A stretch of 64,000 nt of DNA from Croceibacterium aestuarii (GTDB lineage: Bacteria > Pseudomonadota > Alphaproteobacteria > Sphingomonadales > Sphingomonadaceae), in assembly GCF_030657335.1 (NCBI RefSeq), contig NZ_CP131039.1, forward strand, positions 2,930,501 to 2,994,500. The letters run 5' to 3'. Positions 47,179-51,691 of the stretch are shown here, one piece after another; position 1 is the first letter of the stretch; every line of letters starts with the position of its first letter. Position numbers and translations under genes: made by a program. Under the pieces are notes generated by a model that saw nothing but the letters and a program-made list of their open reading frames with translations, was not told the DNA's origin and did no database searches.

Positions 47179-47419
47179 GGCGCCATTGTGGAGGCGGCGG
47201 CGGGGAAGTTCAAACGCATTTGGCCTTGGGCAGCGATTCGTTCAGCTTTCAGCGCGTTCCTGCTGACGAAGGTGACAGACATGGACCGGGTGTTACACGA
47301 TCCAGGACGAAAAAACTCGCCCTCGCGCAGATTGGCGTGCGGACAGGGGCGGAAAGGCGGATTGCAGGCGAGCACGCGCATCGGCCAACCCAAGCAGATC
47401 GCCGCGGTGTAGGAAAGGG

Positions 47420-47830
47420 CTAGGCAACAGCGAGGAGCTGGCCGGTGACGCCCGGAGCGCGCTCCAGGTAGGCCAGCGTGCGCGCGATATCCTGCCGGTC
47501 GGCGCCGACGATGCCGTTGACCCGGCGGGGCGCCATCTCGCGTGCGAGTTCCTGCACCGCCGCCAGGCGCCAGGCGCGGTGTTCGTGCGATGCGGGCGGA
47601 AAGACGATGACGAGAGCTTCCCCTGCACGGGGAGAGGGCAGCGGCGCGGACGCCGACGGAAGGGATTCCCGGCCCGGCGACTCCCCTCCACCATGCTCCG
47701 CATGGTCCCCCTCCCCGTTACGGGGAGGAAGGTGCGCCCGGGCTCTCGGCAGCCACGTCGCGTAGAACTCCGCCGCGGCGTCGAGCGGACCGGCGGGCAA
47801 ATCGGCCACGTCGATCTGCAATGTCACCAT
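47420..47830 (-). CDS. Rossmann-fold-like protein encoded with folB, carrying an in-frame repeat insertion
   Basis: 136 residues; the family is known to me only as a small Rossmann-fold-like partner of sphingomonad folB. The N-terminal part QIDVADLPAGPLDAAAEFYA and the C-terminal part PPASHEHRAWRLAAVQELAREMAPRRVNGIVGA look conserved and intact. Residues 34-72, rich in Pro, Gly and Ser (PPRNGEGDHAEHGGGE...), come from a palindromic repeat element inserted in frame. The ATG overlaps the folB stop (TGATG). The function is unknown, and whether the inserted protein works is untested. Confidence 0.7.
   Translation of the reverse strand: MVTLQIDVADLPAGPLDAAAEFYATWLPRARAHLPPRNGEGDHAEHGGGESPGRESLPSASAPLPSPRAGEALVIVFPPASHEHRAWRLAAVQELAREMAPRRVNGIVGADRQDIARTLAYLERAPGVTGQLLAVA
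47617..47731 (-). repeat. Palindromic repeat element, copy A, inside the folB-partner gene
   Basis: A 115-base element. Both ends are hairpins: CCTCCCCG-TAA-CGGGGAGG type at 47728-47711 and CCCC-TGCA-GGGG at the other side. An internal ACCATGC / GCATGGT hairpin lies beside the first. Read on the gene strand, the first ~48 bases are closely matched by 49810-49763 (copy B). It keeps the frame open and supplies about 39 residues. Confidence 0.8.
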
Positions 47831-48198
47831 CAGCGCCGCTCGCGCGTCAGGGTAATGCCGATCTCCTCGTCCGCCTCGCTCAGCGCCAGCTTGACGATCT
47901 TGACGCTGACTTCCTCGACCCGCTGGTCCTGGACGAACAGCGTGTCGGCGACATGCTCGGCGACCGCCTCGATGAGCTTGAAGTGGGTGTCGCCAAGGGC
48001 TTCGGAGGCGGCGAACTTGAGGTCCATGTAGTTCTTGCTGGCGTCGAGATGGGTCTCGGGCTCGTAGCGGTCCTGTGCCTTGAGTTTGACGCGCACGGTG
48101 AAGCGCAGCGGCTGCGGCCGGCCGGTCTCCTCCGAGTAGATGCCCGTGTGCACCATGTGCTCGAAGTTGGCGATTTCGAGATAGAGGCAGTCGGCCAC
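47830..48198 (-). CDS. folB: Dihydroneopterin aldolase family protein
   Basis: 122 residues, the usual FolB size. FolB acts in folate synthesis, making 6-hydroxymethyl-dihydropterin. It opens DCLYLEIANFEHMVHTGIYSEE, has PLRFTVRVKLKAQD, MDLKFAASEAL and FKLIEAVAEHVADTLFV, and ends VKIVKLALSEADEEIGITL. No ATG fits; GTG at 48198 is preceded by GGGAGA at a good distance and starts the fold correctly. The Glu and Lys positions of the aldolase site are plausible but not verified. Confidence 0.85.
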   Translation of the reverse strand: MADCLYLEIANFEHMVHTGIYSEETGRPQPLRFTVRVKLKAQDRYEPETHLDASKNYMDLKFAASEALGDTHFKLIEAVAEHVADTLFVQDQRVEEVSVKIVKLALSEADEEIGITLTRERR

Positions 48199-48330
48199 CG
48201 GAGTCTCCCGCAAGTACGCGGCGCGGATGGCAGGCGGTGCGGCGCTTGTCCACCACCCACACCAGGGCACTGGGCTACAGACGCTCTTGCGGTTATCTGC
48301 GGACCGATGCCGGAAACACCAGCACGATCG

Positions 48331-49170
48331 ATGGGGCACAAGGCCCGCACGCTCGCCGCGCTCATGCTGCTGCCCATGCTCGGCGGCTGCGTGGCCGCGG
48401 CCGCGCTGGCCGTGCCTTCGATGACCGCGCTGGGCGTGATCGAGAAGGGCAAGCGCGACAAACGCGAGCGATCGGAAGCGGCTCCGTCCGCCGCTGCGGA
48501 GGCCGCGGCATCAGTCCCCGACCGGTCCTGGGAACTGACGCCGCTCACGCAGTTGCCGGCCAATGCCGGCCCGACCTCGCCCGGGGCACCGGCCCGGCCC
48601 TGGCAGAACTTCCTCGACTACGCGCTCGCCGGCGCGGGCGAGGAAGACGGCAGGGAATCCGCGATCCTAGCGCCCGAGGCCGCGCAACGCCTGCTCCCTC
48701 GCCAGGAGCCATGCGAGCGCGGCGAGAAGGCCGTCATCATCGATCTCGACCACGGCGCAAAGGCGTTTTCGCCCGATGCGGAGCTCGAGCCCTCTCCGGG
48801 CCTCGCCACCGGGCTTGCGCGACTGCGCGAAGCCGGGGTCGTCGTGATGTGGATCTCGCAGCTCGACGCAAACCGGGTGGACGACGTTGCCAAGGCCCTG
48901 ATGCGCTCGGGCCTCGACCCCACGGGCAGGGATCCGATCCTGCTCGTGCTGGGCGACGGCGACCGCAAGCAGGCCTTGCGCGAGCAGGCGGCCCGCAGCG
49001 CCTGCGTGCTCGCCATCGCCGGCGACCGGCGCGAGGACTTCGACGAACTGTTCGGCTACCTGCGCGACCCGGCCACCGCGAGCAACTTCGACGTCTTGAT
49101 CGGTTCGGGCTGGTTCCTGGTGCCCGATGCCCTCTCCGCGGCGGCCAACGAGCCGCAACCCGCCGGCTAA
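48331..49170 (+). CDS. HAD-like phosphatase-family lipoprotein
   Basis: 279 residues with a lipoprotein signal (LAALMLLPMLGGC, Cys at 20) and then a Ser/Ala-rich linker. A HAD-type domain follows: AVIIDLDHGAKAF near residue 133 holds the DxD pair, VVMWISQLDANRVDDV near 170 resembles motif II, and LVLGDGDRKQALREQAAR with VLAIAGDRREDFDEL near 230 resembles motifs III-IV. It resembles outer-membrane class B/C acid phosphatases. An ATG at 48307 is an alternative start. It is divergent from folB and its stop overlaps the converging methyltransferase by three bases. Confidence 0.75.
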   Translation: MGHKARTLAALMLLPMLGGCVAAAALAVPSMTALGVIEKGKRDKRERSEAAPSAAAEAAASVPDRSWELTPLTQLPANAGPTSPGAPARPWQNFLDYALAGAGEEDGRESAILAPEAAQRLLPRQEPCERGEKAVIIDLDHGAKAFSPDAELEPSPGLATGLARLREAGVVVMWISQLDANRVDDVAKALMRSGLDPTGRDPILLVLGDGDRKQALREQAARSACVLAIAGDRREDFDELFGYLRDPATASNFDVLIGSGWFLVPDALSAAANEPQPAG

Positions 49171-50132
49171 GAGTTGCGCCAGCGGGCGAAGATCGCGGTG
49201 GGGAGCAGACGGCCGCCCTCCCCCTCCTCGCGGACGGCCAGGTCGCCGTGTTCGATCGTGCCCGGCAGCGCGGCGAAGTGTTCGGCCAGCAGCCCACCGA
49301 GCGCGAGGCTGCTCATGCGCACGGCATAGACGGTGAGAAACAGGAAGCGGCTCTCGGCATCGAGCAGCGTGCGGCAGTCGGCGACGAGGCCGGGCAGACC
49401 CTCCTCGAGCCGCCAGGTCTCGTTCTTCGGGCCGCGGCCGAACTTGGGCGGGTCGAGGATGATGCCGTCATAGCGGTTGCCGCGGCGCACCTCGCGCGCG
49501 GCGAACTTGGCGGCATCGTCGACCAGCCAGCGGATCGGGCGGTCCTCCATGCCCGACAGCGCGGCATTATCTCGCGCCTGGGCGACCGACTTCTTGCTCG
49601 CATCGACGTGGGTCACGGGACCGCACTCGCTGAGCGCAAGCGTGCCGACGCCGGTGTACCCGAACAGGTTGAGCGTTCCTCTTCCTCCCGGTGGCGGGGA
49701 GGTGGCCGATGCGGCAGCATCTGACGGAGGGGGTTCGCCACCATCGCTTCGCGTGCGGCCCGCCCCCTCCACCACACTGCGTGCGGTCCCCCTCCCCGTG
49801 CCGGGGAGGATACCGCGCATCCAGTCCCACACCGGGGCCATGTCGGGGAAGAAGCCGAGGTGGCGGAAGGGTGTGTTGTGGGCGGTGAACGTCACCTCGT
49901 TCCAGGCGAGCGGCCAGCCGTCTTCGGGCACCGGGCGGTCGAAATGCCAGCGGCCGCCGCCGTCTTCGTCGCTGCCGGGAATGAATTCGCCATCGGCCCG
50001 CCACTCGCCCAGCCGCGGGCTCCACATCGCCTGCGGCTCGGGGCGGACGAAGCGATAGGGGCCGTAGCGTTCGAGCTTGCGGCCGTGGCCGGAGTCGACG
50101 AGGCCGTAGTCGGCCCAGCCCTCCCCCTCCAT
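49167..50132 (-). CDS. Class I SAM-dependent (RlmI-like) methyltransferase, carrying an in-frame repeat insertion
   Basis: 321 residues. YGLVDSGHGRKLERYGPYRFVRPEPQ-type opening, SAM motif I LNLFGYTGVGTLALSE near residue 154, VDASKKSVAQARDN, and catalytic-loop type ILDPPKFGRG near 225 match RlmI/RlmK-like rRNA cytosine methyltransferases. Residues about 108-153, just before motif I, are a Gly/Pro/Ser-rich segment derived from a palindromic repeat. ATG at 50132 is chosen because the longer reading frame upstream is itself repeat sequence. rRNA is the likely substrate. Confidence 0.85.
   Translation of the reverse strand: MEGEGWADYGLVDSGHGRKLERYGPYRFVRPEPQAMWSPRLGEWRADGEFIPGSDEDGGGRWHFDRPVPEDGWPLAWNEVTFTAHNTPFRHLGFFPDMAPVWDWMRGILPGTGRGTARSVVEGAGRTRSDGGEPPPSDAAASATSPPPGGRGTLNLFGYTGVGTLALSECGPVTHVDASKKSVAQARDNAALSGMEDRPIRWLVDDAAKFAAREVRRGNRYDGIILDPPKFGRGPKNETWRLEEGLPGLVADCRTLLDAESRFLFLTVYAVRMSSLALGGLLAEHFAALPGTIEHGDLAVREEGEGGRLLPTAIFARWRNS
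49681..49810 (-). repeat. Palindromic repeat element, copy B, inside the methyltransferase gene
   Basis: A 130-base element whose ends are hairpins (CCTCCCCG-...-CGGGGAGG at 49809-49792 and CTTCCTCCCGG-...-GGGAGG at 49681-49702). It shares with copy A the order end hairpin, GGGGGACC, a small hairpin, and GGTGGAGGGG on the gene strand. The gene reads it in a different frame from copy A and still meets no stop, adding about 44 residues. Confidence 0.8.
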
Positions 50133-50186
50133 GACGAGCGGCTGTTCGACGAGATCAGCCAACCGCGCCTCCGCGCATCCCCACGC

Positions 50187-50264
50187 CCGTTCGTGCAGAG
50201 ACTGTCGAAGCACGCAGGCGGAACGTTTGTGCCAATCGTCCTTCGACAGGCTCAGGACGGACGG
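50187..50264. repeat. Intergenic REP-like repeat, copy 2 (left of thrC)
   Basis: Contains CTGTCGAAGCACG as one hairpin side (CGTGC ... GCACG at 50191-50213 region) and then GTCC-TTCGACAGGCTCA-GGAC (50238-50258). It is the same family as 27952-28020 and 51761-51840. It fills most of the 155-base gap between thrC and the methyltransferase start. Confidence 0.72.
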
Positions 50265-50287
50265 AAGTAGGAGGCGCCGGCATCACG

Positions 50288-51691
50288 TTAGCGTGAGGGC
50301 GCCGCGTGCTCCGCGACATAGGCGGCGATGGCGTCGTAGTCGCCGGGGAGCTCGGCACAGGCCTCGTCGCGCTCGAACAAATCGCCGATTCGCGCGGGCA
50401 ACTGCGGACGCAGGCCGGTGGCGCGCTCGACCGCGTCGGGGAACTTGGCCGGGTGCGCGGTGGCGAGCGTGACGACCGGGACGGCCGCCGGCAGGTCCGC
50501 CGCGCGGGCAGCATGAAGGCCAATGGCCGTATGCGGGTCGACGACTTCACCGTCGCAAGCCTCGAAGGCCCAGCGCATCGCCTGGCTCATCGCGTCGGCA
50601 TCGACCCGCGCACTGGTGAACAGAGCCGCGGCGCCTTCGCGCTGGGCGTTGGTCAGGCGCATCGCCTTGCTGCCCTCGAAGCCGCGCATCTGCTCGGCCA
50701 GCGCCTTCCCGTCGCGGCCGCCGACGTCGAACAGCAGCCGTTCGAAGTTTGAGGAAACCTGGATGTCCATGCTCGGCGCTGCGGTCGGGGTTACGGCGCC
50801 GGCGGAATAGTCGCCATTGGCGAGCGCGCGGTGGAGGATGTCGTTGACGTTGGTGGCCACGATCAGCCGCTCGATCGGCAGCCCCATGCGCGCCGCGACG
50901 TGCCCGGCGAAAACGTCGCCGAAGTTGCCGGTCGGGACGCTGAAGGCGACCTTGCGCTCGGGCGCGCCGAGCTGCAGCGCGCTGGCGAAGTAGTAGACAA
51001 CCTGCGCCATCAGCCGCGCCCAATTGATCGAGTTGACCGCGCTGATGCGGAAGCGGCCGGTCATGTCGGTGTCGCCGAACATCCGCTTCACCATCGCCTG
51101 GGCATCGTCGAAGCTGCCGTCGATGGCGATGTTGTAGACGTTGGGCGCCTTGACCGTGGTCATCTGCCGGCGCTGCACGTCGCTGACCCGCCCCTTGGGG
51201 TGGAGCATGAAGATGTCGATCCGCTCGCGCCCGGCGACCGCGTCGATCGCCGCGCTGCCGGTATCGCCGCTGGTCGCGCCGACGATGGTCAGCCGTTCGT
51301 CGCGGCGGGCGAGGAATTCCTCGAACAGCAGGCCGAGCAGTTGCAGCGCCACGTCCTTGAACGCCAGGGTCGGGCCGTGGAACAGCTCGAGCAGCCAGTT
51401 GCGCTCGTCGAGCTGGGTCAGCGGGGTGACCGCTGCGTGGGGGAAGCGGCCATAGGCCTGCGTGCACAGTTCGTGCAGGCGCTCAGGGGTGAGGGCATCG
51501 CCGACGAAGGGCTGCATGACCCGTGCGGCGAGCGCGGCATAGGGCAGCCCGCGCATGGCGGCGATCTCGTCGCTGGTGAAGCCTGGCCACTCGGCGGGCA
51601 CGTAGAGGCCGCCGTCGCTCGCCAGCCCGGCCAGCGTCGCGCCTTCGAAATCGAGCGCCGGGGCGCTTCCGCGTGTCGAGACGTACTGCAT
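50288..51691 (-). CDS. thrC: Threonine synthase
   Basis: A PLP enzyme converting O-phosphohomoserine to threonine. 467 residues, the class I (fungal/proteobacterial) length. It shows MQYVSTRGSAPALDFEGA at the start, FHGPTLAFKDVALQLLG near residue 109 with the PLP Lys, GATSGDTGSAAIDAVAG near 138, and VSVPTGNFGDVFAG-type FSVPTGNFGDVFAG near 251. It stands alone between two REP-like repeats. In many relatives it lies directly beside the oxidase/SURF1 operon; here an ArsR/SRPBCC pair intervenes. Confidence 0.96.
   Translation of the reverse strand: MQYVSTRGSAPALDFEGATLAGLASDGGLYVPAEWPGFTSDEIAAMRGLPYAALAARVMQPFVGDALTPERLHELCTQAYGRFPHAAVTPLTQLDERNWLLELFHGPTLAFKDVALQLLGLLFEEFLARRDERLTIVGATSGDTGSAAIDAVAGRERIDIFMLHPKGRVSDVQRRQMTTVKAPNVYNIAIDGSFDDAQAMVKRMFGDTDMTGRFRISAVNSINWARLMAQVVYYFASALQLGAPERKVAFSVPTGNFGDVFAGHVAARMGLPIERLIVATNVNDILHRALANGDYSAGAVTPTAAPSMDIQVSSNFERLLFDVGGRDGKALAEQMRGFEGSKAMRLTNAQREGAAALFTSARVDADAMSQAMRWAFEACDGEVVDPHTAIGLHAARAADLPAAVPVVTLATAHPAKFPDAVERATGLRPQLPARIGDLFERDEACAELPGDYDAIAAYVAEHAAPSR

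Follow-up and report, generated by a model that had tools for sequence, protein, structure and literature searches.

The methyltransferase gene and its in-frame repeat

The window analysed here, a 64,000-nucleotide stretch of the Croceibacterium aestuarii genome, contains on its minus strand an open reading frame (49167-50213; 348 residues, true start unsure) encoding a SAM-dependent methyltransferase (Pfam PF10672; closest solved structure, 2IGT). Lying in frame within this ORF, at 49683-49810 on the minus strand, is a copy (copy B) of a dispersed palindromic repeat of about 130 nt with four hairpins. On the gene strand copy B begins with TCCTCCCCGGCACGGGGAGGGGGACC, as had been described in an earlier note on this DNA, and it is read in the ILPGTGRG... 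frame as ILPGTGRGTARSVVEG...PPPGGR. It adds to the protein the peptide ILPGTGRGTARSVVEGAGRTRSDGGEPPPSDAAASATSPPPGGR, directly before the sequence NLFGYTG, which we take to be the motif usually named SAM motif I. The earlier note was right about the length of the insert, some 44 residues, and wrong in placing it at residues 108-153: it occupies about residues 135-178 of the 348-residue ORF, as counted from an uncertain start.

The folding of copy B was better than that of 199 out of 200 dinucleotide shuffles (z -3.29 as DNA, -3.32 as RNA). Its first terminal hairpin (49791-49809), of the type CCTCCCCG-nnn-CGGGGAGG, is perfect and is defined by folding and by the family-wide count of closing pairs given below. 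It is accompanied by a second hairpin of the ACC...GGT kind (49771-49787), whose stem differs among copies yet stays paired, with changes on both sides. A central stem with a variable middle comes next (49726-49770; arms GGAGGGGG at 49726-49733 and CCCCCTCC at 49763-49770), and the terminal hairpin of the opposite end (49684-49702), recognised by folding and by comparison of the ends, is imperfect in this copy. A BLAST search of the genome with copy B gave eight matches at E <= 0.001; four other places were 74-80% identical over most of the length, and three matches were partial. The covariance model score of copy B (111.7 bits) is high by construction, because copies A and B are among the seven copies from this genome used to build the model. 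A known Rfam RNA was ruled out by a scan of 47400-50400, which gave no family match over the element, the sole match lying outside it (E 4.8, under the gathering score).

The same element is present as copy A at 47616-47729 on the minus strand (114 nt, right end degraded). The two copies were confirmed to be one repeat. Both lie on the gene strand and are read in two different frames of the same element strand, with LPGTGRG in copy B and LPPRNGEG in copy A, the latter translated as LPPRNGEGDHAEHGGG. The earlier note had assigned copy A to the methyltransferase gene as well; its host is actually the neighbouring ORF 47420-48262 (minus strand), which has an SDR-like domain (PF21777) in two matched stretches and whose real start is probably later. 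An inverted repeat with CCTTCGACAGGCTCAGGACGGACGG also precedes the methyltransferase immediately upstream (50180-50271; arms 50180-50214 and 50237-50271, 77% complementary); by eye, it resembles the TruB palindromes of genomes G014 and G025 mentioned below.

The methyltransferase matched 2IGT both in profile (E 1.9e-88) and in fold (E 4.7e-33, 38% identity, TM 0.79/0.82), its model aligning with this structure across nearly the whole chain. E. coli RlmI/YccW (3C0K) was distant, with 14% identity, and therefore the previous label of the gene as RlmI-like is valid for the fold and not for a close relationship. An AlphaFold2 model of a 327-residue construct, based on 23 sequences, had a mean pLDDT of 77.9, with values below 50 at residues 119-150, which make up most of the insert, and at residues 39-46. 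The low-pLDDT segment 119-150 is located between a predicted helix (102-114) and a predicted strand (159-162), in agreement with the claim that the insertion point is a loop ahead of a conserved motif. With these low values, the copy B peptide is most likely a floppy or disordered linker that joins the N-terminal part of the protein to its SAM-binding part.

A 44-residue insert beside the SAM motif could be taken as damage in a decaying pseudogene, and this is the sole point in favour of such an explanation, which had been named in the earlier note and which we regard as highly improbable. The ORF has no internal stops and retains the conserved motif columns, its branch length with the linker removed is ordinary (0.086, vs 0.094 in the insert-free gene of congener G004), and the model follows 2IGT over nearly all of its length.

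A dispersed repeat family with conserved structure

The covariance model was applied to the window's own genome (G000) and to four congeners (G001-G004). Counting both strands, matches numbered 16 in G000, 148 in G001, 38 in G002, 2 in G003 and 27 in G004. At least 122 distinct copies were retrieved among the matches listed (G000, 7; G001, at least 92; G002, 10; G003, 1; G004, 12), a set that leaves out one listed copy each in G001 and G002, while a further copy may exist in G000. The end-hairpin pattern CCTCCCCGN{2,8}CGGGGAGG was detected in 20 of the 59 genomes of the panel, G001 alone having 118 sites. These 20 were found among the 35 genomes of the window's taxonomic family, vs none of the 24 from other families of the order; the reversed control of the pattern gave a single match in G006 and another in G014.

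The central stem of the element is flanked by two halves in inverted orientation, each made up of an end hairpin plus a second hairpin. At the end hairpin, the closing pair was Watson-Crick in 190 of the 197 ends readable by the pattern (47 of 244 ends were unreadable), with four pair types, the expectation being 102 if both sides were independent. Second hairpins of the ACC...GGT kind had a stem of at least 6 bp in 107 of the 109 found, with 22 stem halves, and RNAalifold on seven copies revealed both-sided changes at 5 of 32 pairs. An alignment that contained the copies on both strands was left out of the pair counts. Altogether, the structure of the repeat is preserved while its sequence diverges. 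In three copies of G001 (C8:224394, C9:138849 and C11:88588) the right end was swapped for a common GGCCGGAGCTTGTCC sequence, resembling a chimera of two repeats.

Over the 122 copies, the consensus of the ends was TCCTCCCC...GGGGAGGA flanked by A(A/G)A on the left and T(C/T)T on the right, i.e. A(A/G)A-TCC...GGA-T(C/T)T. A 3-bp direct repeat at the ends was found in none of the 122 copies, and target-site duplications of 4, 5, 6 and 8 bp, sought over 64 offset pairs, were shared by at most 3, 2, 1 and 0 copies, respectively. The target-site duplication expected of a MITE of a DDE transposon was therefore not seen in these 122 copies. No match to PF01797 (Y1 transposase) was detected in the window's genome or in the four congeners, which ruled out a resident Y1/RAYT transposase in them; 12 of the 59 panel genomes had one. 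Since PF01797, the only mobilising enzyme sought in G000-G004, gave no match there, the mobility of the repeat is deduced from its dispersal.

Three repeat families in one methyltransferase linker

The insert site was compared among orthologues, as the earlier note had proposed, by measuring the linker between W-M and NLFGYTG. The 110 loci comprised the 30 best-scoring loci of the panel genomes and the best 80 of 559 named relatives of a query, which belong to Erythrobacter, Aurantiacibacter, Novosphingobium, Sphingomonas and similar genera; the two sets possibly overlap. Among the 109 readable loci (L145 was unreadable), the linker had 13 residues in 82 and 9-21 in 106, and measured 35, 38 and 49 residues in the remaining three, in a set whose 80 relatives favour insert-free genes because the query was mostly insert-free. 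All three long linkers belong to the window's genus.

The three long linkers, in G000, G001 and G002, contain three unrelated repeat families, so that one loop is occupied in three of the five congeners. In G001 the insert is an in-frame palindrome of 83 nt that ends in CGTC on both sides; this type has 98 pattern matches in G001 and 3, 6, 7 and 0 in G000, G002, G003 and G004, respectively. In G002 it is an in-frame CCTCCCGC palindrome, of a type that has 48 sites in G002, 10 in G001 and 8 in G004 but gave none in G000 or G003, with one match of the reversed control in G002. Genome-wide counts of other repeat types cover these two methyltransferase inserts. G003 and G004 have retained a short linker, like that of outgroups. 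The G001 gene (L030) also has a second repeat-like insert, ALRQAQGNRTEG, in a C-terminal loop that is about 8 residues shorter in most of the aligned orthologues.

In a tree of threonine synthase and methyltransferase, G000 grouped with G004 (92/84) and G001 and G002 with G003 (98/96), and 0 of 200 bootstrap trees grouped the three insert carriers on one side of a branch. The tree of the methyltransferase by itself was largely unresolved, and the carriers were likewise united in 0 of 200 bootstraps. A single ancestral insertion in the genus was ruled out for this linker by the tree. Since G003 and G004 keep an outgroup-like linker, one gain followed by two exact losses is unlikely, which implies at least two, probably three, separate insertions. 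These were not clean insertions, as about 7-9 native linker codons are unrecognisable next to each insert. Because two congeners hold two unrelated repeats in the same loop, the picture is more of a loop permissive to insertions than of a repeat made for genes.

Inserts in other enzyme loops

The loops of other genes that carry the repeat were studied with z values derived from mononucleotide shuffles (the TruB insert of G001 was outside the refolded set). In ValS (20 loci, L270 unreadable), the window's repeat family occupies the loop in G000 and G001, and another palindrome does so in G003 and G005 (z -5.3 and -5.6). The ValS of G002 has a short non-palindromic extension, and G004 and G006-G011 have no insert. 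In methylmalonyl-CoA mutase (12 of 20 loci readable) the insert begins at the end of the MM_CoA_mutase domain, ahead of the B12-binding domain. The linker there contains the window's repeat family in G001 and G002 and a weaker palindrome in G006 (z -3.0), is long and non-palindromic in G004 (z +0.8), and is short in G000, G003, G005 and G007-G010. The TruB loop (30 loci retrieved) holds palindromes of several kinds in 9 of 27 readable genomes. G001 and G031 have the window's repeat family there; G006, G018 and G022 have palindromes ending in CGTC; G014 and G025 have a CTTCGACAGGCTC-like type; and G010 and G032 contain other palindromes. In G023 (z 0.4) and G017 (z 0.1) TruB is extended by non-palindromic sequence. 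In the SDR-like gene that hosts copy A, the repeat occupies one site in three genomes, with 114 nt in G000 and in G004 and 135 nt in G001, always in the same frame; the site is empty in G002 and G003. The copies of G000 and G004, with the same length, site and frame, were probably inherited.

The multi-family pattern of the methyltransferase is shared by the ValS and TruB loops and, less clearly, by the mutase linker. Because the genes were chosen for carrying an insert in one genome, the pattern of landing sites leans to tolerant loops and provides no genome-wide rate. A few loops of housekeeping enzymes (methyltransferase, ValS, TruB, perhaps mutase and SDR-like) might be landing pads that receive unrelated palindromes repeatedly, independently and in frame, beyond what tolerance alone would give, an idea that we consider rather unlikely. 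Insertion might also be directed, with the DNA, its state or a resident repeat attracting repeats, or with recombination swapping one repeat for another. Such a process would fit the occupation of the methyltransferase linker by three repeat families across three of the five congeners, the several palindrome kinds in the TruB loop of 9 of 27 genomes and the two families in ValS. However, the ValS insertion points differ between repeat families, insert-free linkers vary in length too, and a common target motif was not seen by eye, so that directed insertion seems unlikely.

Genomic habitat and copies within genes

The 120 copies outside the window were distributed among convergent gaps (44), co-directional gaps (63), divergent gaps (3), the inside of genes (8) and gene edges (2), classes that derive from our own codon-model gene calls and not from curated annotation. 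Two copies outside the "inside genes" class later proved to be in a short gene; the habitat count, the convergent-gap enrichment, the hairpin counts, the count of offset target-site duplications and the random-piece comparison below used a split with 10 copies in genes. Convergent gaps were enriched with regard to all adjacent gene pairs at the same loci (p 1.8e-5), and the median distance of copies to gene 3' ends (21 nt, n 151) was close to that to 5' ends (25 nt, n 69).

At least 12 of the 122 copies lie within genes and are open in the gene frame. Their hosts are ValS (G000 and G001), methylmalonyl-CoA mutase (G001 and G002), TruB (G001), a DNA polymerase III alpha-like gene (G002, L224), an IMS-family polymerase gene (G003, L231), the SDR-like gene (G000; G004, C40:78334; G001, C9:340293), an ORF without Pfam match (G000) and the window's methyltransferase (G000). 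By our reading, the G002 gene is DnaE2-like and the G003 gene ImuB-like; two polymerase genes resembling translesion synthesis genes thus hold in-frame copies in different congeners. The 12 copies use the forward PPR frame in seven cases, the forward LPG frame in two and the reverse PPR frame in three. The screen considered ORFs that extend at least 50 residues to either side of a copy. These made up 76 rows, or 72 distinct ORFs, of which 70 were scanned against Pfam, and 12 is a lower bound because most spanning ORFs had no Pfam match. With a lax threshold, the codon-model classifier, which retains about 95% of true 150-nt flanks at threshold (5th percentile 0.14), allowed up to 21 in-gene copies, and the count may rise, since this classifier misses short genes.

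If a bacterial coding density near 90% is assumed, the low in-gene share implies avoidance of genes or removal of copies from them. This share is uneven, with 4 of the 7 copies retrieved in G000 vs 4 of 92 in G001 (Fisher, p 6e-4), and given this difference in-gene copies may outlive others once a burst ends.

Copies in genes might have a function, for example by slowing translation at a domain boundary through an mRNA hairpin, or by acting as a peptide linker with a role. Their predicted stability is similar to that of copies outside genes (-0.741 vs -0.759 kcal/mol per nt), the mutase insert is placed at a domain boundary and the methyltransferase insert precedes the SAM-binding part. Nevertheless, the methyltransferase linker has no more than 21 residues in 106 of 109 readable loci, and repeat families, peptides and frames vary, for which we give a functional role little credence.

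Open reading frames of the repeat

The earlier note had proposed that the element is shaped for tolerated insertion into genes and that stop codons should be depleted across its copies in comparison with shuffled sequences. The 110 copies not found in genes had on average 4.24 of six frames open vs 3.87 in dinucleotide shuffles (100 per copy), the replicate means of which ranged from 3.64 to 4.09, all 100 below the observed value, and they had 2.04 stops per copy vs 2.59. This comparison treats related copies as independent, and the shuffles break the hairpins. The depletion is consistent, but it is small. For random 130-nt pieces drawn from the retrieved loci, copies included, the average was 3.52 open frames, and the 12 in-gene copies had 5.08 vs 4.19.

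These values could reflect an element that has evolved openness in several frames to enter genes harmlessly, and the use of three frames by in-gene copies, one of them reverse, would be in line with it. On the other hand, most copies lie outside genes (at least 12 of 122 within), and one reverse frame is open in just 0.46 of the 110 copies, mostly because of TGA in CTGACGGAG- or GTGACGGAG-like sites. The lengths of these copies modulo 3 (41/39/30) ruled out that the element is tuned to multiples of three. Besides, the copies are related, and the hairpins lost in the shuffles may themselves limit stops. We therefore find evolved multi-frame openness improbable, and the proposal of the earlier note survives at most in a weak form. 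We see no convincing sign of an element shaped for genes; a few copies that do little harm are retained there.

Origin of the methyltransferase insert

We consider it probable (roughly 0.73) that copy B is a non-autonomous, REP/RPE-like selfish palindrome, one of the survivors in a few permissive loops, in an enzyme that still works. In favour of it are the dispersed copies with their common ends and covarying hairpins, the absence of a visible target-site duplication, the mostly intergenic location, the in-frame copies in some housekeeping genes, the presence of unrelated repeat families in the same loops and the predicted disorder of the insert. According to this interpretation, an element of about 130 nt would spread selfishly via some machinery, and selection would remove most of its insertions into genes. 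Survivors would sit in length-tolerant loops or domain linkers, using one of the frames that a sequence of roughly 76% G+C often leaves open, and the peptide of copy B would, most likely, be a disordered linker in a methyltransferase that remains functional. Several observations count against this selfish palindrome: the missing PF01797 match in G000-G004, the native linker codons that are unrecognisable beside the methyltransferase inserts, the non-palindromic extensions in the mutase of G004 and in TruB of G023, the similar distances of copies to 3' and 5' gene ends, the uneven in-gene share of G000 and G001, which simple filtering does not predict, and the small excess of open frames outside genes.

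One enzyme loop with three unrelated repeat families in three congeners, and with a short ancestral loop in others, constitutes a natural before-and-after series. It bears on the question of whether proteins simply tolerate in-frame insertions as junk or draw on them as raw material for new segments.

Comparison with known palindromic repeats

In the accessible parts of the published work, palindromic repeats that lie in frame within genes are described above all from Rickettsia, and sporadic REP cases come from other organisms (PMC3733652, PMC10969869). RPEs are described there as dispersed palindromes, about 105-150 bp long, that an alphaproteobacterium carries in frame within conserved genes (PMC2229807, PMC10969869), with RPE-1 present in TruB of R. 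conorii (PMC3733652). The window's repeat is similar in being a palindrome of about 130 nt in frame in conserved genes, a likeness of working and not of shared descent. In a comparison by description only, it differs from RPEs in its high G+C content, in its inverted halves with end hairpins and in its occurrence in Sphingomonadales. It differs also in the proportion of copies in genes, at least 12 of 122 vs nearly half of RPEs according to the accessible part of PMC10969869, in which a similar process in other prokaryotes is held to be conceivable.

GTAG- and CGTC-tagged REPs are hairpin units, often in inverted pairs, that lie mostly in intergenic regions, in convergent or co-directional gaps, and they also occur in frame in TruB, tRNA synthetases and DnaE2, as described in PMC3733652. 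The window's repeat shares with them the mostly intergenic location in convergent or co-directional gaps and the presence of some copies in frame, including one in TruB, and the methyltransferase insert of G001 and the TruB inserts of G006, G018 and G022 are CGTC-ended. Unlike these REPs, its own ends average A(A/G)ATCCTCCCC, which does not correspond to either tag, and it has two hairpins per half.

REPINs are mobilised by RAYTs, which are Y1 tyrosine transposases. The window's repeat resembles them in pairing two inverted hairpin units around a variable middle. It differs in that no PF01797 match was detected in its genome or in the four congeners, G001 with its at least 92 copies among them. 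In literature titles and abstract openings, mostly from non-subscription literature, the family is not named, and the nearest statement, in the accessible part of PMC3733652, is that different REPs occupy about the same recB site in two Xanthomonas species. We file the window's repeat as a new family among the small dispersed palindromes that are able to sit in frame in genes.
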